Assembly: GCA_018644785.1 (NCBI GenBank)
Contig: JABGPV010000078.1
Coordinates: forward strand, 1-18,551
Direction: 5' to 3'
DNA from: Deltaproteobacteria bacterium
GTDB taxonomy: Bacteria > Desulfobacterota > DSM-4660 > Desulfatiglandales > Desulfatiglandaceae
DNA length: 18,551 nt
The position numbers and the translations under genes were made by a program. Numbering within the stretch: the stretch's first letter is position 1; the number at the start of each line of letters is the position of its first letter. Positions 3,199-18,414 of this stretch are shown in pieces. The notes under the pieces were generated by a model. The model made no database searches. It was not told the origin of the DNA and saw only the letters and a program-made list of their open reading frames with translations.

Positions 3199-3648
3199 TC
3201 AATCGCTCAAATGTTTTTTTCTGACCTCGTACATAATGACCGCAGGGATGAAAAAGACCACATCGGCAATCATCTTACCCACAAAGGTGCCCAGCAAAAA
3301 ATCCCCCATGAGTTTCGGCATGAGGTACATGAAGAAAGGCCGAACCGCCAGGACATCCAGGATCTCGGAGGGACCAAATTCAATAATCAGATTTCGCAGG
3401 TCCTTGAAATAAGCGGCGAAACCGTAACGCAGGTCATGCTTTCGATGGTGTTTCAGGCTTTTTCTGACATCAACATAAGCCATTATGCCGTAAAAACTGA
3501 TGGATGCCATGGCGGAGCCCACGAAGGCCGCCAGGACATTGTCCCCAGTTGTCCGGTGAATGAGCCATGCCGTGGCCAGACTCAGCGCGGTGCTCAAGAT
3601 ATCGGCCAACAGATATCTTCTGATCCATTCCCTTATTTTGTTCTTCAT
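3199..3648 (-). CDS. Four-helix integral membrane protein of unknown function
   Basis: 149 aa. Predicted membrane segments lie at about 13-30, 37-59, 97-115 and 118-140, with a basic loop (RKSLKHHRKHDLR, 62-74) between the first and second pairs. A conserved-looking motif, IIEFGPSEILD (88-98), precedes the third helix, and MIADVVFFIPAVIMYE ends the fourth. The layout (four helices, ~140 aa) recalls GtrA-like proteins, but no diagnostic GtrA motif is visible, so no family is assigned. It is last in the minus-strand permease operon, 3 nt after the 56-codon ORF. Confidence 0.65.
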   Translation of the reverse strand: MKNKIREWIRRYLLADILSTALSLATAWLIHRTTGDNVLAAFVGSAMASISFYGIMAYVDVRKSLKHHRKHDLRYGFAAYFKDLRNLIIEFGPSEILDVLAVRPFFMYLMPKLMGDFLLGTFVGKMIADVVFFIPAVIMYEVRKKHLSD

Positions 3649-3651
3649 TGG

Positions 3652-3822
3652 CTATTTCTTGACGCACAATGTCCTGAAAAACCGCTTCCCATCCCTTGAC
3701 GTTCTCACCACGCCATGGATCTCGCTTTCATATCCGGGGAAGGCGTTTTCAAAATCCTGTCTCAATTTCAGATAATCAAATATGGGGTCTGTTTTTTCAT
3801 TTATGATTTCCCCCCCCATCAT
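3652..3822 (-). CDS. 56-codon ORF overlapping the permease 3' end (separate gene or frameshifted permease tail)
   Basis: From ATG 3822 (or 3819) the minus strand reads 56 codons to a TAG at 3654-3652. It starts MMGGEIINEKTD, continues with FDYLKLRQDFENAFPGYESE and ends in RFFRTLCVKK. The mixed charged and aromatic make-up looks like real coding. It overlaps the permease 3' end by 26 nt in another frame, and the next gene starts 3 nt after its stop. The overlap includes an 8-base G run (plus-strand C at 3810-3817). Losing one G would join this sequence to the permease as a cytoplasmic tail. No homologue is recognised. Confidence 0.5.
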   Translation of the reverse strand: MMGGEIINEKTDPIFDYLKLRQDFENAFPGYESEIHGVVRTSRDGKRFFRTLCVKK

Positions 3823-5308
3823 AGTTGGCTAATTCCACGTCCTTTTCAGCAACCTTGATCCAACCGGGCTTTCTCAGACCATATATCAAAAAGGCCGCAC
3901 CACACATAACCAGAATCCCCAGAACCAGAAATGATTCATAGAACAAAAGACTTCCCGTCTTCAGTTGCGACGGCGGAAAGAATCCGATGAACAGGGTAAA
4001 TACCCCCCCCAGAAGTCCCAGCATAGCCACCCCCCACATGCCGAAATTGCCCCCGGGGATTCGGTAGGGCCGATGAACATCCGGCCGCTTGTATCTCAGG
4101 ACAAGGGCGGAAAGAAACATCAACAGGTACATGATTAGATAAAGCTGGGCCGTAAGGGCAGTGAGAATCCAGTAGGCACTGCTCACGGTCGGCATCAACA
4201 AGAATACAAATACCAGCCCAGTGACGACCAGGGCTTGAAGAAACAGGATGTTCACGGGCACATCGCCATGGATCGTGCGCTGCAAAATGGGCGGAAGAAG
4301 TCCATGCCGGGCGGAAACCAGCAGACCCTTGCTGGGCCCCAGAATCCAGGCCGACACCTCCCCGAGGGAACCCATTACAATCAGCAAAGCTACAATGGGC
4401 AGAAGCCAGCCCAGATGGTAAGCGGCAAAAAACTTTTCAAAAGCCTCCATGAGCCCTGCCACCAGGCTGATGTCTTTCTGGGGCACCACGAAGGCGATGG
4501 CCAGGGAACCCAGAACAATGGCGGCAATGGAAACAAATACTGAAAGAAAAATCGCTTTTGGAAACGAACGTTTAGGATCTTTCACCTGAGAGGCATGGGC
4601 CGCTGAAACCTCAATGCCGCTAACGATGACCAGTGCGCCGGCAAGGAATACAAAACTGTCCATACGGCTGAAATCCGGGACCAACGAAGCCATGGAGAAT
4701 TGAATCTGTGAGGCATTTCCGGAAATAATCCAGTTGAATCCCAAAACAACGATCAGTCCCGTTGTTATCAGCGTGCTCACCACCCCCAGGGTACTGATCC
4801 AGGCGGAGGTTTTCAAGCCGCGCAGGTTGGCAAAAGTCCCTCCCCAGTAAACCACCAGCACCACCACCAGTGTATAGACTTTATTTTCAGCCAGATCAGG
4901 TGAAAAGGCATACGCCAGGGTTGCCGCAATAAAAGAGAGTACTGTGGGAAACCAGATGACATTTTCGCTCCATTGGAGCCAGATGGCCAGGAAAGCCCAC
5001 CGTTTCCCAAGGGCTTCATTGACCCAGATATAGACACCACCGTCTCCCTTGGGCGGCCATGTGGAAGAAAGTTCCGCTGTAACCAGTGAAATGGGGATCA
5101 GGAAAAAGAGAGCGGAGATGGCCATGAATGAAATGGCGCGAAAGCCCTCTTCCGCCATGAGGGGAAGCCCCCTGACACTGTAAATAATGGCCAGATTGAT
5201 CATGGCCAGGGAAACCCATCCGATGGTACCCCGCCCGGTCTGTTTAAGCGTTTTTTGCTCCCCCTTCCGATCCGATTCTGGCATACGGATACCCCATTCT
5301 GACCACAT
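3797..5308 (-). CDS. APC-superfamily amino-acid permease, glutamate/GABA-antiporter-like
   Basis: 503 aa, a usual length for the family, with about twelve hydrophobic segments. Family marks are the first helix region (LAIIYSVRGLPLMAEEGF), the PKGDGGVYIWVNEALG loop between helices 2 and 3, and GIEVSAAHASQVKDP in the middle, which parallels the corresponding GadC-type segment. It should exchange or import amino acids across the inner membrane; the substrate cannot be read from sequence. The start is uncertain: ATG 5308 has a poor ribosome site, and ATG 5284 (MPESDRKG) is also plausible. It leads a minus-strand operon with the 56-codon ORF and a membrane protein. It holds two 8-base poly-C tracts (4003-4010 and 3810-3817, plus strand), the second at its very 3' end. 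Confidence 0.9.
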   Translation of the reverse strand: MWSEWGIRMPESDRKGEQKTLKQTGRGTIGWVSLAMINLAIIYSVRGLPLMAEEGFRAISFMAISALFFLIPISLVTAELSSTWPPKGDGGVYIWVNEALGKRWAFLAIWLQWSENVIWFPTVLSFIAATLAYAFSPDLAENKVYTLVVVLVVYWGGTFANLRGLKTSAWISTLGVVSTLITTGLIVVLGFNWIISGNASQIQFSMASLVPDFSRMDSFVFLAGALVIVSGIEVSAAHASQVKDPKRSFPKAIFLSVFVSIAAIVLGSLAIAFVVPQKDISLVAGLMEAFEKFFAAYHLGWLLPIVALLIVMGSLGEVSAWILGPSKGLLVSARHGLLPPILQRTIHGDVPVNILFLQALVVTGLVFVFLLMPTVSSAYWILTALTAQLYLIMYLLMFLSALVLRYKRPDVHRPYRIPGGNFGMWGVAMLGLLGGVFTLFIGFFPPSQLKTGSLLFYESFLVLGILVMCGAAFLIYGLRKPGWIKVAEKDVELANYDGGGNHK

Positions 5309-6288: not shown

Positions 6289-6309
6289 GATCTTTCCGTA
6301 GGGATGATT

Positions 6310-7266
6310 ATGATCACCGTCGGTATCGCAAAAGACTGGGACTGGCCCGATCTCCTCCGACAAACCCCGGGCGGGAAAGGGATTTGGGAAGGGATGCGGT
6401 TTATCCTGGACCCTGAACCGACCTGCGATTTCCTGGTGGTGCTGAACAACAAAATGAAAACGGAAACCCGGGCCCACTGCCCCCCTGAAAATGTGTGGTG
6501 CCTCATGCAGGAACCCTACATGAAAGGGCACACGGACTGGATGGTTGAGAAGCTGGAGCGCTTTTCGCGGGTCCTGACCCACCATGCCCCCTCAGGCCAA
6601 TCAAAATTTGCCGTTTCACAGCCCGCCATCCCCTGGCATGTGAACAAAACCTTTGACCAGCTGGTTGCCCTTGAAATGCCATCTAAACCCAAAACCCTTT
6701 CATGGGTGGTGGGCAATGCCAGGGACCTGCCCGGCCACAGGAAAAGATTGGCTTTTCTGGCGTATATCCAAAGAAAAGGCTCTTTGAACATTGATTTATT
6801 CGGAAGAGCGGTTCAGTTTATCGAGGACAAATGGGACGGGCTCGCCCCTTACAAGTATTCCCTGGCCATCGAAAACAGCAGCAGCCCCGACTACTGGACG
6901 GAGAAAATAGCCGATTGTTTTCTCTCCTGGTCGGTTCCCATATACTATGGCTGCACCAACCTGGAGGACTATTTTCCCTCAGGATCTTTCATCAGGATCC
7001 CTATCGATTCCCCCGAGGAAGCCTTTGAATCGGTTAAGACCATCATAAAACGGGACAACTGGGAAAAGCGACTTCCCGCCCTCGAGGAGGCCCGGGATTT
7101 GGTGCTTCACCGTTATCAACTGTTCCCCCACTTGTCCCGGCTTATACAGGCACAGCCCCAAAGGGATTTGAAACCCAACGATATCCTTCTCCCTGCCTAC
7201 AAAAGAACCGTGAAGGCAGCTTTCAATCACCAGATGTATAAAATCAGGAAACTTCTTTTTTTTTGA
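6310..7266 (+). CDS. GT10 family fucosyltransferase-like glycosyltransferase
   Basis: 318 aa from ATG 6310, chosen over ATG 6304 because an AGGGA ribosome site then has normal spacing. The diagnostic GT10 block lies in the C-terminal half: YKYSLAIENS, then YWTEKIADCFLSWSVPIYYG and NLEDYFPSGSFI, matching the alpha-1,3-fucosyltransferase donor-binding region. Bacterial members transfer fucose or a related sugar from a GDP donor onto LPS or O-antigen. It lies 21 nt after the first glycosyltransferase and 17 nt before the third, so co-transcription is likely. Family call is strong; fucose itself is inferred, as no GDP-fucose genes are in the window. Confidence 0.85.
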   Translation: MITVGIAKDWDWPDLLRQTPGGKGIWEGMRFILDPEPTCDFLVVLNNKMKTETRAHCPPENVWCLMQEPYMKGHTDWMVEKLERFSRVLTHHAPSGQSKFAVSQPAIPWHVNKTFDQLVALEMPSKPKTLSWVVGNARDLPGHRKRLAFLAYIQRKGSLNIDLFGRAVQFIEDKWDGLAPYKYSLAIENSSSPDYWTEKIADCFLSWSVPIYYGCTNLEDYFPSGSFIRIPIDSPEEAFESVKTIIKRDNWEKRLPALEEARDLVLHRYQLFPHLSRLIQAQPQRDLKPNDILLPAYKRTVKAAFNHQMYKIRKLLFF

Positions 7267-13686: not shown

Positions 13687-14775
13687 CTAATTTCCCGGAT
13701 GGACAATCAGCTTCTGCCCCGGGTGAATGGGATCTCGCGGACTAATGCGATTCCAGATGAACAGTGCGGTGACCGGCACATTGTGGCTGCGGGCGATGGT
13801 GGAGAGATTGTCACCCGGCCGCACCACGTAGATCCGGCCTTTGTGGTTCTCAGCATAGGCTTTGAGCAATCTGGAGAACCGTTTCTGAAAACCCCGCAAA
13901 GACCCTTTTGGTATAAGGAGTTCGTGGTCGCCTTCTGCAAGATAGTGCCCCCGGACTTCCGGGTTGAGATCCTTGATGACCTTGAAACGGGTCTTTGCCG
14001 CCTTTGCCACAAGTTTGATGGGCGTTTCTCGGTCGCATTTCAGCTGAACCCTGTCAAAGGATAAAAGCGGGTAGCGGTCTTTCGCGGACAGGGTGAAACC
14101 ATACCTTTCCGGATCGGAAAAAATGAGTTTGATGGCGAGGATGCGAAAGAGAAAGTGCTGGGTTTCAAGGGGCAGATAAAGGTCGTAGTAATTCATGGCG
14201 CCCTGGGCCAGTATCTCACCCATCAGACCTTTTTCTCCCATATTGTAGGCGGCGGCGGCCAAAGTCCATGAACCCAGTTCCTGGTGAAGGGATTTGAAAT
14301 AGCGGATGGCGGCCCGGGTGGATGCGAACGGGTTCCGTCTTTCGTCGATCCGGTCGTTGATGACGAGCCCATATTTTCGCCCGGTGGGTCTTACGAACTG
14401 CCAGAAACCGATGGCCCCCCGGCTGGATCCCGCATGGGGTCTCAAAGCACTTTCTGCAATGGCCACATATTTGAGGTCATCGGGCAATCCGTTTTTCTTG
14501 AGCAATTTTTCCATATGGGGCAGATAACGTCCCGCCCGTTTCAACCACAGGATCACCTGGGGTCGATTCCAGAGGGCCAGCAGCAGTTCCCGCTCGAACC
14601 GTTGTCTCACATCCGGATTGTTCATGGGGACCGGTTCACCACAGAAATTCTGGCCGGGGGGAATTTCGAGCGATGCCATCAAAGCGGGAATCCGTGCCGG
14701 TTCAATGGGTTTTGCTTCGGCAGTCTCTCCGAACAGAAACCCGGCAGCCATTAGCAATATGATAAGCCATCTCAT
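13687..14775 (-). CDS. Membrane-bound lytic transglycosylase, SLT domain plus LysM (MltD-like)
   Basis: 362 aa from ATG 14775, which has AAGGAA 5 nt upstream and starts a signal peptide (MRWLIILLMAAGFLFGETAEA). Longer readings of the frame run into the radical SAM gene and are rejected. The SLT fold at ~95-225 shows the catalytic Glu108 in AIAESAL, then GAIGFWQF (120-127) and AAAYNMG (174-180). One LysM peptidoglycan-binding repeat follows at 315-359 (IYVVRPGDNLSTIARSHNVP). It should cleave glycan strands to 1,6-anhydro-muropeptides in the periplasm. It lies 22 nt after the extended ArsS frame, so it may be co-transcribed, though no functional link to ArsS is evident. It ends 11 nt from the convergent DUF4139 gene. 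Confidence 0.9.
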   Translation of the reverse strand: MRWLIILLMAAGFLFGETAEAKPIEPARIPALMASLEIPPGQNFCGEPVPMNNPDVRQRFERELLLALWNRPQVILWLKRAGRYLPHMEKLLKKNGLPDDLKYVAIAESALRPHAGSSRGAIGFWQFVRPTGRKYGLVINDRIDERRNPFASTRAAIRYFKSLHQELGSWTLAAAAYNMGEKGLMGEILAQGAMNYYDLYLPLETQHFLFRILAIKLIFSDPERYGFTLSAKDRYPLLSFDRVQLKCDRETPIKLVAKAAKTRFKVIKDLNPEVRGHYLAEGDHELLIPKGSLRGFQKRFSRLLKAYAENHKGRIYVVRPGDNLSTIARSHNVPVTALFIWNRISPRDPIHPGQKLIVHPGN

Positions 14776-14788
14776 GTGCTTTCCTTTC

Positions 14789-14821
14789 CGCCTGAACTCA
14801 GGACCTGATGGCGCCGCCTCA
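14789..14821 (-). promoter_or_regulatory. Sec UGA codon and candidate bacterial SECIS hairpin
   Basis: The UGA is at 14821-14819. Downstream in the RNA, CGCC (14813-14810) can pair with GGCG (14792-14789), and UCAG (14808-14805) with CUGA (14801-14798), leaving a GUC apical loop within AGGUCC. The apical GGUC resembles the loop of the fdhF SECIS from memory. The loop begins about 14 nt after UGA, slightly close for a bacterial SECIS, and the right side has a 5-nt bulge. This was folded by eye only. Confidence 0.45.
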
Positions 14822-15796
14822 GGTAAAACCTGTTCCCGCGGTGCATGTATAACAATGATCAGCCACGGCAATGGGGCTCCCTGACGGCGGTGCCCCCGCC
14901 ATTTCGGATACATGAATCTTTTCTTTGCCCATGTGAAGTCCCTCTGCCATGTTGAAATCGCAATCGTAGAGATATCCGTCCCATGAAACGGAAACCTGGG
15001 TTCTGCACATGAGTCCTTCAATGGCACAGGCATTAAAGCTTGATACAAGACGTTCCACATAGGATTCAAAATTCCCCGTTTCTTCAAGCCAGTTGCGGAA
15101 CCGTCCCAGAGGGACATTGGCAAAAGCGAAGAGATTGTTGAAAACAATGCCCCACTTTTTCATGAGCACTTCACGAAATCTCTTTGACAATTGTTCCTGA
15201 GGGGCGGGTAAGAATGCCCCCGGAGGGTTGCACACGAGATCCAGTGCCAATCCTGTTTCTATTCGTCCATACCCCATATTATTGAGTTTCCGGAGGGCGG
15301 CGATGCTCTTCTGGAAAATACCCGCTCCCCTCTGAGCGTCCGCTTGAGCTTCGTTAATAGAGGGTAAAGAGGCAACGATGTGGACTCTCTTCTCCCTTAA
15401 TAAATCCATCAAATCATCCCCCTTTCCATCGTCCAAAGCCGTCAAATTGGATCGGAACATGATTTTCTGGGTCAGGGGGGAGAGACCTTCGATGAGCCCA
15501 TAAGTATTCGGATTCAACTCGGGAGCGCCGCCGGTGATATCGATGGCATCAAAGCAACTCTTCTCGGCATAGGCCATAACCCCGTCCGCTGTTTCCGAGT
15601 CCATATTTTCCGTTCGACCGGGCCCTGCGTTCAGATGACAGTGGCGACAGGTCTGATTGCACAGGAGCCCCACGTTAACCTGAAGGATCGTCGTCTTTCT
15701 CCGTTCCAAATTGAGGCCATACCTCAAAAGGGCCTGGTGGAAAGGCTCCGGTGTCCTTTCGGTCGTCCTGATTTCCTGTAAAGCGTCATCATTCAT
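14798..15796 (-). CDS. arsS: ArsS, arsenosugar-biosynthesis radical SAM protein, predicted selenoprotein
   Basis: Residues 46-53 hold the radical SAM CNQTCRHC (CxxxCxxC) that binds the 4Fe-4S cluster; ITGGAPELN (87-95) is the next conserved block. The C-terminal DUF3641-type part is Cys-rich (C257, C264, C279, C315, C318), ending HCYTCTAGTGFT. The frame then meets TGA (14821-14819) and continues GGAIRS to a second TGA (14800-14798). Relatives read ...CTAGxGSSCGGA, with Cys or Sec where this TGA lies, so the protein is called as 332 aa with Sec326; without Sec it would be 325 aa. ArsS is thought to make dimethylarsinoyl-nucleoside sugars from SAM. It follows the AhpD-like partner by 15 nt. No arsM is in the window. 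Confidence 0.88.
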
Positions 15797-15811: not shown

Positions 15812-16144
15812 CTACATGGAGAGCTTTTCCGCGATATTACGCATTTGTACGCCGTGTACCAGGGATGCGCCTCCCCTGATTGCCGTCACCACATGGACGG
15901 CCTCCGTCATTTCCTCCAGGTTGGATCCTTTCTCCAGACACCCTTTGGTGAAGGCATCAATGCAGTAGGGGCATTGTACGGCATGCGCGACCGCCAGCGC
16001 AATCAGCGATTTCTCCCGCTCGGTGAGGGCGCCTTCGGCGAAGACCGCATTGTAATAGTCAAAGAACTTCTCTGACAACTCGGGGGCCTGCTGACCTATT
16101 TCGGGAAATTTGGGTAAATCTTCCGGTTTGTAGTACGTCTCCAT
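15812..16144 (-). CDS. Arsenosugar-biosynthesis-associated peroxidase-like (CMD/AhpD-fold) protein
   Basis: 110 aa from ATG 16144 with AGGAG 7-8 nt upstream; a longer reading to 16219 is rejected. The carboxymuconolactone-decarboxylase/AhpD fold is shown by ALTEREKSLIALAVAHAVQC and the redox pair CPYC, followed by IDAFTKGCLEKG and AIRGGASLVHGVQM. This set is characteristic of the small protein that sits beside ArsS in many genomes. It probably serves as a thiol redox partner or peroxidase-like factor for the ArsS reaction; the biochemical role is not established. Here the active pair is Cys-Cys rather than Sec-Cys. It is translated just before ArsS and 71 nt after the GH63-DUF547 gene. Confidence 0.88.
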   Translation of the reverse strand: METYYKPEDLPKFPEIGQQAPELSEKFFDYYNAVFAEGALTEREKSLIALAVAHAVQCPYCIDAFTKGCLEKGSNLEEMTEAVHVVTAIRGGASLVHGVQMRNIAEKLSM

Positions 16145-16215
16145 GATAAATCTCCTGTTTTTCCTGTTAGATGCTGATCGTAATGGTTTTTGAACCTTTC
16201 CTCCATGCGGACCAT

Positions 16216-18393
16216 TCAATGATTCAGGTTCCAGTCATAGAAAAGATATTCCATCCTGATCCCGGACCCGTTCTTCTCCATGAAAGTCCAATTTTCATCT
16301 TTGTCCAAATATCGAAGCAAGAACTTCCGGATTCCCGTTTTCCCTTCGAAATCCCTCTCGTACCAATCAAAAATCTGGGACAGAAATATCTTGTTCTTTT
16401 CAGGTAAAACGATGACTTCGGAGCTGTTCACAAAGTTCTTCGCAGCCATGTCGAGCTGGTCATCAATTTTTTCCGCATCGTAGAAGCGGATCGGAGCACA
16501 GGATCTTGATCCACAAACAAGGGCAAAATGGATCCTCGGATCCATCTTTTTGAGGCTGAATTCGAGGCGCGGGTCTTTCCTGCCGAAAACAGGGGATATC
16601 TCGTAGGGAGGACGCGCATTGGCTCTCAAGATGCCGTGTTCCACCGCCTCAGGTGAAAAGGAAAAATCGCCGATCCGGTAACTGATCTTCCCGAAAAAAT
16701 TGGAGATTTCCTTTACAGAGGACTTGATCCCCGTTTCCACTATACCATGGATCACAATGGCATTGTAGATATTGATCCAGAAAGCCAGTTTTTCTTCATC
16801 AGAGGAAAGACTCCCGAGTTCAAAACTTCGAAGCCCTGCGGCCACCTCCTGGTATAGATGATAATCCGCCGAATTTTTCATGCCCCCGTAATCCACCCTG
16901 CCCCGATGCAGGTCATAGAACCTGTTTTTCAGCTTACCCATGGCGGCCATCAATTCCGATGCAGGTGAGTTTGAAGAATAAGCCCGGCCATCATCTAATA
17001 AGTTTAATACTTTCATCTCGTTAAGACGATTTTTTCTGTGAGGCTTCAGCCAATCGAGGCGATGCTTGTCTTCGCTGTAGTATTCATAGACCAGATCGAG
17101 GAACAGGGCTGCCGTCCAGGAAAACCCGTCAGAGCCATACCCTTTCCCCGTCCGGGAGTCGAAATACTCATGAAAGCCAAAGCGCATGGGAAGCTGGATC
17201 ATATCCCGGTTCATGGCATCGGCCTTTTCCACATACCCGTACCCCTTCAGTCCCCGGGAAATCATCCAGTTCATGTTGATCCAGACAGGCCCGCGCCAGT
17301 AGTTCCTGGAATCAAAGTCTTCCCGGGTCATGTCGTAATTCGGGACGGTGAAGCAGTTTCCCTGGTGAAGGGCGCAGAACGCAATGGAGTCGAGCGTTTC
17401 AAAAAGGGTTTGGGCCTGTTCCCTGGAAGCGGCACTTGCGAAAAGTGGCAGAAAACCGGCCGCGGTGGCGGAATGAATGAGGTTCCCGTCCACCGTGTCG
17501 AAGGACTCAAACTGCCTGCACTGAGGACACCAGAGTTGGCTCGATATGGCGCTGGATGTCCTCTCCACCCACTCCGCCACTTCAGAAGTGTCTTGCTTCA
17601 GGAGATCGGCTATCATCAGGAGGTCTCTATTGGCCCGACACAAAATGGAATTGAATAAGACATCCTTAACCATGAAAGGGCATTCCCCGCGAATGTCTTC
17701 TTCTCTGTAGCCCAGGCGCCTGAAGAGATCCACAAGGTAAACATAGCGATCGTACTCTTCGTCGCCCGGTCTTTGATCGACGGGAATGCCGTGCTTCAGG
17801 TCTTTTCGTTCGTAGCCGGGAAGCGCTTTCCGGTCGACCCGTATCTTCTTCAAGGGTTTATCCCACGCAGGGGAGTTGTCCAGGCCTGACTCCCATGGGT
17901 GTCGGATATAAACAAGACCGGAGCCGTCGGGATCTCTTTCGCGATAAAGATAACGATGGAGGGCCATGAGCCTGGGATACATGAAATGGAGAAAATCGTT
18001 TGCCCCTGTTCCGTCACGGGCGCTCTCATAGATATGCCAGCAAGCAGTCGCATGAATGGGCGGCATGGTGATCCCACTGGTGGGTCTTCCATCGGGGGCC
18101 TGCCAGAAATCGGGCTCAGGGAAGTAGTGACCCAACGCCTCGGGGTTAAAAACGATCTGGGGTACCATCCCGTTCGGCCATTGGTGAGCAAACAGAGACT
18201 TCAATTCCTGCCGCGCCTTTTTCTGATCGTAGTGGGCGTTGCCAATGGCGATGAAAGCGGAATCCCAGTTCCACTGATGGGGATACAGGCCGGGGGAAGG
18301 CCTGGTGTATGAACCCGTCCAGTTGGCCTTCAGCACTTGCCGTGCTGCCTTGACATACTCCTTGAATCCTTTGGCGCTAAAAAGTCCGAACAT
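16216..18393 (-). CDS. GH63-type glycoside hydrolase fused to a C-terminal DUF547 domain
   Basis: 725 aa from ATG 18393 (GAGA about 8 nt upstream); a TTG at 18405 would add four residues. Residues ~10-445 form a GH63/(alpha/alpha)6-barrel enzyme: PHQWNWDS (38-45), HPWESGLDNS (165-174), NYWRGPVW (364-371) and FHEYFDS (407-413). D172 and E409 are the likely general acid and base; their 237-residue spacing equals the pair I recall for glucosylglycerate hydrolase (D182/E419). Residues ~480-725 are DUF547: AFWINIYNA (537-545), a CGSRSC pair (627-632) and a YDWNLN end. No signal peptide is seen. Its neighbours are another DUF547 gene upstream and the ArsS pair downstream. The substrate is unknown; mannosyl/glucosylglycerate-like glycosides are one guess. 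Confidence 0.82.
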   Translation of the reverse strand: MFGLFSAKGFKEYVKAARQVLKANWTGSYTRPSPGLYPHQWNWDSAFIAIGNAHYDQKKARQELKSLFAHQWPNGMVPQIVFNPEALGHYFPEPDFWQAPDGRPTSGITMPPIHATACWHIYESARDGTGANDFLHFMYPRLMALHRYLYRERDPDGSGLVYIRHPWESGLDNSPAWDKPLKKIRVDRKALPGYERKDLKHGIPVDQRPGDEEYDRYVYLVDLFRRLGYREEDIRGECPFMVKDVLFNSILCRANRDLLMIADLLKQDTSEVAEWVERTSSAISSQLWCPQCRQFESFDTVDGNLIHSATAAGFLPLFASAASREQAQTLFETLDSIAFCALHQGNCFTVPNYDMTREDFDSRNYWRGPVWINMNWMISRGLKGYGYVEKADAMNRDMIQLPMRFGFHEYFDSRTGKGYGSDGFSWTAALFLDLVYEYYSEDKHRLDWLKPHRKNRLNEMKVLNLLDDGRAYSSNSPASELMAAMGKLKNRFYDLHRGRVDYGGMKNSADYHLYQEVAAGLRSFELGSLSSDEEKLAFWINIYNAIVIHGIVETGIKSSVKEISNFFGKISYRIGDFSFSPEAVEHGILRANARPPYEISPVFGRKDPRLEFSLKKMDPRIHFALVCGSRSCAPIRFYDAEKIDDQLDMAAKNFVNSSEVIVLPEKNKIFLSQIFDWYERDFEGKTGIRKFLLRYLDKDENWTFMEKNGSGIRMEYLFYDWNLNH

Positions 18394-18414
18394 ATTGAAT
18401 CTCAACCGGTTCTG

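Follow-up and report, generated by a model that had tools for sequence, protein, structure and literature searches.

The role assigned to ArsS is to make the As–C bond of arsenosugars. Adenosylation of arsenic by a radical SAM enzyme during arsenosugar formation is described in the excerpted text of PMC12159101, which cites a 2021 ArsS study. The family, TIGR04167, is entered as 'Radical SAM domain protein' with a GxxU motif and AAR34688.1 as its representative in Table 1 of PMC13188914 and in a table of PMC9312934, and the excerpted text of PMC13188914 gives it as predicted with high confidence, not as experimentally verified. The same Table 1 holds a verified selenoprotein arsenite methyltransferase (NF008823), which is also a Sec-using arsenic enzyme but, by its description there, is set apart from ArsS as a methyltransferase outside the radical SAM enzymes, and TrsS (NF045646), which is also a radical SAM selenoprotein but is listed there as a separate family and is absent from the 14 NCBIfam matches of the ArsS protein analyzed here. 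Among the papers searched, TIGR04167 was mentioned only in PMC13188914 and PMC9312934, and none joined ArsS with selenoprotein and radical SAM. Sec in the ArsS family has thus already been predicted, and the gene described here is a further member. By profile it belongs to the same family as the listed TIGR04167 selenoprotein and, as far as the excerpted listing goes, shows no difference in kind, being another member that is cut short in the predicted proteins of its relatives. Because its C-terminal motif, CTAGxGFTU, gives GxxU, the Sec position fits the listing as excerpted.

The gene lies on the minus strand of an 18,551-nt stretch of DNA from a Deltaproteobacteria bacterium (contig JABGPV010000078.1 of assembly GCA_018644785.1), the whole of which was analyzed and is called the window below. 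Its open reading frame (14819–15796) runs for 325 codons to a TGA at 14819–14821; reading through this codon adds GGAIRS (14801–14818) before a second TGA at 14798–14800, exactly the arrangement that the initial annotation had reported. The read-through coding region (14798–15796) specifies 332 residues with the first TGA at residue 326. In an NCBIfam profile search this product scored 386.2 bits over residues 30–330 against TIGR04167, above the curated cut-off of 300 bits, and since the alignment covered positions 2–303 of the 303 profile positions, the profile extends beyond the TGA. The full family name, 'arsenosugar biosynthesis radical SAM (seleno)protein ArsS', carries the word that the initial annotation had given for it. 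Matches to PF04055 and PF12345 showed the radical SAM CxxxCxxC motif and the C-terminal DUF3641 domain. The radical SAM cysteines C46, C50 and C53 are invariant in 43 chosen ArsS sequences, as are C264, C279, C315 and C318, the last two at the positions first given for them.

The best 120 of 8000 scored proteins, drawn from 5.8 billion in the collection, share one C-terminal endpoint just before the Sec position, reading ...CTAGxGF[TS] or a close variant, which bears out, at the level of protein sequences, the expectation that automatic annotation would lose the C-terminal end. Taken alone, this shared endpoint could mean a real stop. DNA of relatives gave a different picture of the site. One class of relatives contained 46 ArsS matches in 42 of 257 genomes, with one in-frame TGA in 39 of the 46 (one of these 39 also has a TAG, which is its terminator), and a sample of the phylum contained 126 matches in 121 of 395 genomes, 41 of them with one in-frame TGA, numbers beyond what chance would give. 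We read the site in the 46 class matches and in 52 of the 126 phylum-sample matches, some of which are common to both. Among 100 loci read (two of them repeats), the motif was present in 97, and the column, with any residue allowed, held TGA in 74 and Cys in 23; no other residue occurred in these 97 readable loci. Removal of the repeats (L036 and L065) left a distinct set of 95 loci, including the window, with 72 TGA and 23 Cys codons, proportions that are not population frequencies because the search for the loci started from a TGA-type query. Three loci were left out of these counts: one match short of the C-terminus (L064), one not read by the script (L113), and one with the motif partly missing (L085). 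The last of these (G263:C133) is an ArsS with TGA and a GGAITA tail but without the preceding DHCxxCxAG, possibly an assembly error or a lesion.

The alignment with Cys homologues confirmed that the TGA falls at the Cys position of the GSSC-GG motif, and ArsS shows the pattern used to recognize selenoproteins, an in-frame TGA aligned to Cys in homologues and conserved in more than one sequence. The check for close homologues ending there in TAA or TAG without GGA, which the initial annotation had named as grounds for giving up the Sec reading, did not overturn it. Distant homologues mostly have GSSC. Cys-type ArsS shares the enzyme family and the C-terminal motif with the window protein; it differs in its Cys codon, in lacking a hairpin at or below −7.5 kcal/mol (0/23), and in having Ser-Ser instead of Phe-Thr before the Cys, save in L105 and in five FT/FS-C members. 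These five genes (L079, L097, L098, L099 and L100) belong to the subfamily of the window, GF[TS]-x-GG, and have TGC or TGT at the TGA position. With the Sec column excluded, a tree of 92 rows (three short ones omitted) required at least six changes between Sec and Cys, four of which were forced by strongly supported branches, and TGA was kept in 65 of its 70 FT-type rows. Another Sec-type group with a GSTU-[TA]G tail (L053, L054, L056, L101 and L102) stands apart from the FT group; it likewise includes a Cys gene (L055) and has a strong hairpin of its own, at −10 to −12.5 kcal/mol.

Codon usage beyond the TGA was compared in 67 FT-type TGA genes. At codons 1, 2 and 4 the third positions had pairwise differences of 0.63, 0.71 and 0.59, and the first and second positions differed by 0–0.06, save for 0.20 at position 2 of codon 1; Gly was present at codon 2 in all 67 genes and Ile at codon 4 in 64. 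This third-position variation indicates that the stretch after the TGA is translated. Codon 6 showed the opposite pattern, with the second and third positions nearly fixed, which would suit a constraint on the RNA.

The bacterial SECIS (bSECIS) consensus model, as given in the Fig. 2 legend and other excerpted text of PMC13188914, has a loop of 3–9 nt, a stem of 4–16 bp located 16–37 nt from the TGA, G in the first two loop positions, and an energy of −7.5 kcal/mol or lower; the same source places some bSECIS elements outside the model. A stem-loop with G in the first two loop positions and the loop 19–21 nt after the TGA was found in 66 of the 72 TGA genes. Hairpins at or below −7.5 kcal/mol occurred in 45 of the 72 TGA genes and in none of the 23 Cys genes, only one of which had a hairpin at or below −5 kcal/mol, while 100 sets of shuffled sequences gave a mean of 4.2 and a maximum of 10 genes at −7.5. 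In minimum free energy folds of the same stretch the −7.5 level was reached in 62/72 TGA and 5/23 Cys genes, so the contrast holds, less cleanly. The outer stem pairs, which were not used to set the register, were paired in 131 of 186 cells; none of 2000 permutations exceeded 110, and the best slide reached 100. This analysis covered 62 of 66 distinct sequences, four that fitted no register being omitted, and was scripted register by register because MAFFT alignment of 64 hairpins had mixed the pairing registers.

Covariation was measured in 18 of 20 same-register sequences, the window and L004 (a near copy of L001) being left out. The score of 0.363 exceeded all 500 shuffles and all slides, and two of the five covariation measures were weak, namely double-sided pair changes (323/500 shuffles as high) and further pair types (11/500). 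A covariance model built from the same 18 sequences placed its top hit in the window at 14785–14809 (E 6e-4; next best 0.62). Run on the 23 Cys loci, it found the site in L079 alone (9.0 bits, E 2.3), and its best match among them, in L097 (E 0.042), lay away from the site. Within the matched interval of the window, the hairpin CCUG-AGUU-CAGG (14791–14802, minus strand) has an intact core, CCUGAGUUCAGG, with three outer pairs mismatched, and the short form recurs in L068 and L069. Its loop (AGUU), 4-bp stem, G and 20-nt distance from the Sec TGA to the loop lie within the bSECIS ranges; its energy of −3.4 kcal/mol, or −4.6 kcal/mol in a wider fold with flanks, lies above the −7.5 threshold, for which reason we call it SECIS-like and not a member of the model. 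A 55-nt fold of the window was no more stable than its shuffles (z −0.35).

In the window, as in its relatives, the real arsS stop is within the hairpin, where the second TGA helps supply the loop. Among 66 distinct FT-type genes, codon 7 after Sec was TGA in 41, TAG in 15, TAA in none and a sense codon in 10, and the base after the codon-7 stop was G in 53 and T in 3. A second Sec at the downstream TGA was rejected, given the TAG and sense codons at this position and the absence of common residues beyond it in the listed homologue translations. We tentatively propose that the terminator of a Sec-type ArsS gene (UGA or UAG, never UAA) is itself part of the SECIS, helping to form the stem-loop junction and the loop G, so that termination and Sec insertion would share one element, and that the exchange of Sec and Cys in genomes with Sec machinery would reflect a selective trade-off at an arsenic-binding residue instead of loss of the machinery; taken jointly, the two parts are plausible, with the balance tipped slightly against them. 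A literature search on a terminator within a SECIS gave nothing relevant among the matches listed, which is not proof of novelty.

The Sec machinery was sought in the genomes of relatives. In the class set, 35 genomes with TGA-type ArsS had selB in 33, tRNA-Sec in 28 and at least one of the two in all 35; in the phylum sample the corresponding numbers for 37 genomes were 35, 31 and 36. Misses of tRNA-Sec are soft, as the search over many genomes scored only part of the candidates. In one TGA-ArsS genome (G417) neither selB nor tRNA-Sec was found. Overall, selB or tRNA-Sec was detected in 71/72 genomes with TGA-type ArsS and in 46/50 genomes without it (7/7 and 39/43), and another 39 genomes without TGA-type ArsS, searched for selB alone, gave 36 positives; the machinery, being nearly as common in its absence, is permissive for a Sec-type ArsS and does not discriminate. 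The ten best-scoring relatives' genomes of the phylum sample had selB in 10 and selA, selD and tRNA-Sec in 8 each. The best selD match in each of those eight genomes contained one in-frame TGA, counted anywhere in the match; selenophosphate synthetase is a verified selenoprotein in the excerpted PMC13188914. Both selB and tRNA-Sec are present in the genomes of Cys members of the FT subfamily (G396, G284, G606, G453 and G353).

Some of these genomes carry extra or divergent Sec genes. A lower-scoring tRNA-Sec with the UCA anticodon lies beside selB at L129:452-2487 and L131:587-1651, and at L132 (G339:C31:18000-30000) a selD without TGA, tRNA-Sec, selA and selB are close together. Four tRNA-Sec-shaped genes scoring 54–60 bits have the Cys anticodon GCA according to ARAGORN (L130:4298-4390, L133:2780-2876, L134:2971-3064 and L137:3246-3338); their genomes also carry a higher-scoring tRNA-Sec, and the one in L130 adjoins a second selB. 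tRNA-Sec-shaped tRNAs with a Cys anticodon have been described before.

We conclude that the window arsS very probably encodes a selenoprotein, in which UGA 14819–14821 would specify Sec326 and be followed by the tail GGAIRS and a stop at the second UGA. This reading of the TGA is strongly supported by the Cys-for-TGA swaps, the codon-like variation of the tail, the covarying hairpin and the machinery of relatives, and from these sequence comparisons we infer the recoding itself in the source organism. A genuine stop at this TGA, with GGAIRS left over, untranslated, from an ancestor that had Cys or Sec, would predict the endpoint common to the best 120 listed proteins and would agree with the weakness of the window's own hairpin; it is very unlikely, however, in view of the amino-acid constraint combined with free third positions in the 67 genes and of the Cys codons in five members of the same subfamily. 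The frame would be open after the TGA under any reading, including near-cognate suppression by Trp or Arg or a reassigned code, but decoding of this kind is extremely improbable where the column held only TGA or Cys in 97 loci, the hairpin goes with the TGA, and likely genes of the window, such as 3199–3648, 3797–5308 and 6304–7266, end in TGA.

Under the preferred reading of UGA as Sec, SelB and Sec-tRNA would decode UGA 14819–14821, directed by the hairpin downstream, after which the ribosome would add GGAIRS and end at the second UGA, read by a release factor once the ribosome had melted the hairpin. The product would be a radical SAM enzyme whose short C-terminal tail, following C315 and C318, carries Sec326; these two cysteines, together with C264 and C279, may bind an auxiliary Fe–S cluster. 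Sec326, like the Cys of other members, could act on the trivalent arsenic substrate as a soft ligand or redox residue, holding or reducing it so that the 5′-deoxyadenosyl radical can attack, along the lines of the redox or substrate-binding role suggested at the outset. The inserted Sec might instead be non-catalytic, anchoring or protecting the C-terminal Fe–S region, with Cys and Sec interchangeable by drift, an account that concerns the role of Sec and is compatible with its coding. The Cys members of the FT subfamily in genomes with both selB and tRNA-Sec speak for such drift, and retention of TGA in most FT-type rows despite the cost of recoding speaks against it, with the caveat that the rows came from a TGA-type query; we consider it possible but rather doubtful. 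With natural Sec and Cys forms this closely related, what Sec does in arsenic radical chemistry can be tested directly. The nearest listed ArsS proteins are predicted seven residues short and have lost the conserved Sec, and expressing the truncated form, or deducing arsenosugar capacity from it, means working with an incomplete enzyme.

Structure prediction gave a radical SAM fold in which the tail (residues 322–332) was below pLDDT 50, so that Sec is not placed in the model and its role is not located by it. The 50 PDB fold matches listed were all other radical SAM enzymes, and searching solved structures by sequence yielded two weak matches, both to proteins other than ArsS. Upstream of arsS on the same strand lies its partner, an arsenosugar-associated peroxidase-like gene of the AhpD/CMD family (15812–16219; TIGR04169, 191 bits; PF02627), with its start more likely at an ATG near 16144; such a gene occupies this place in 80 of 109 ArsS loci, a count that includes repeats and is limited by short flanks. 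The next gene downstream, an SLT transglycosylase with LysM (13687–14775, minus strand), starts 22 nt past the true arsS stop. Directly upstream of the peroxidase-like gene, at 16216–18405 on the minus strand, is an MGH1-like glycoside hydrolase fused to DUF547, matches to which are also present in L003 and in L066/L117 (one locus); the proximity of a sugar-glycerate hydrolase to an arsenosugar gene may be more than incidental. The window also contains an Acido-Lenti-1 RNA (Rfam RF01687, 52 bits) at 570–615 on the minus strand.
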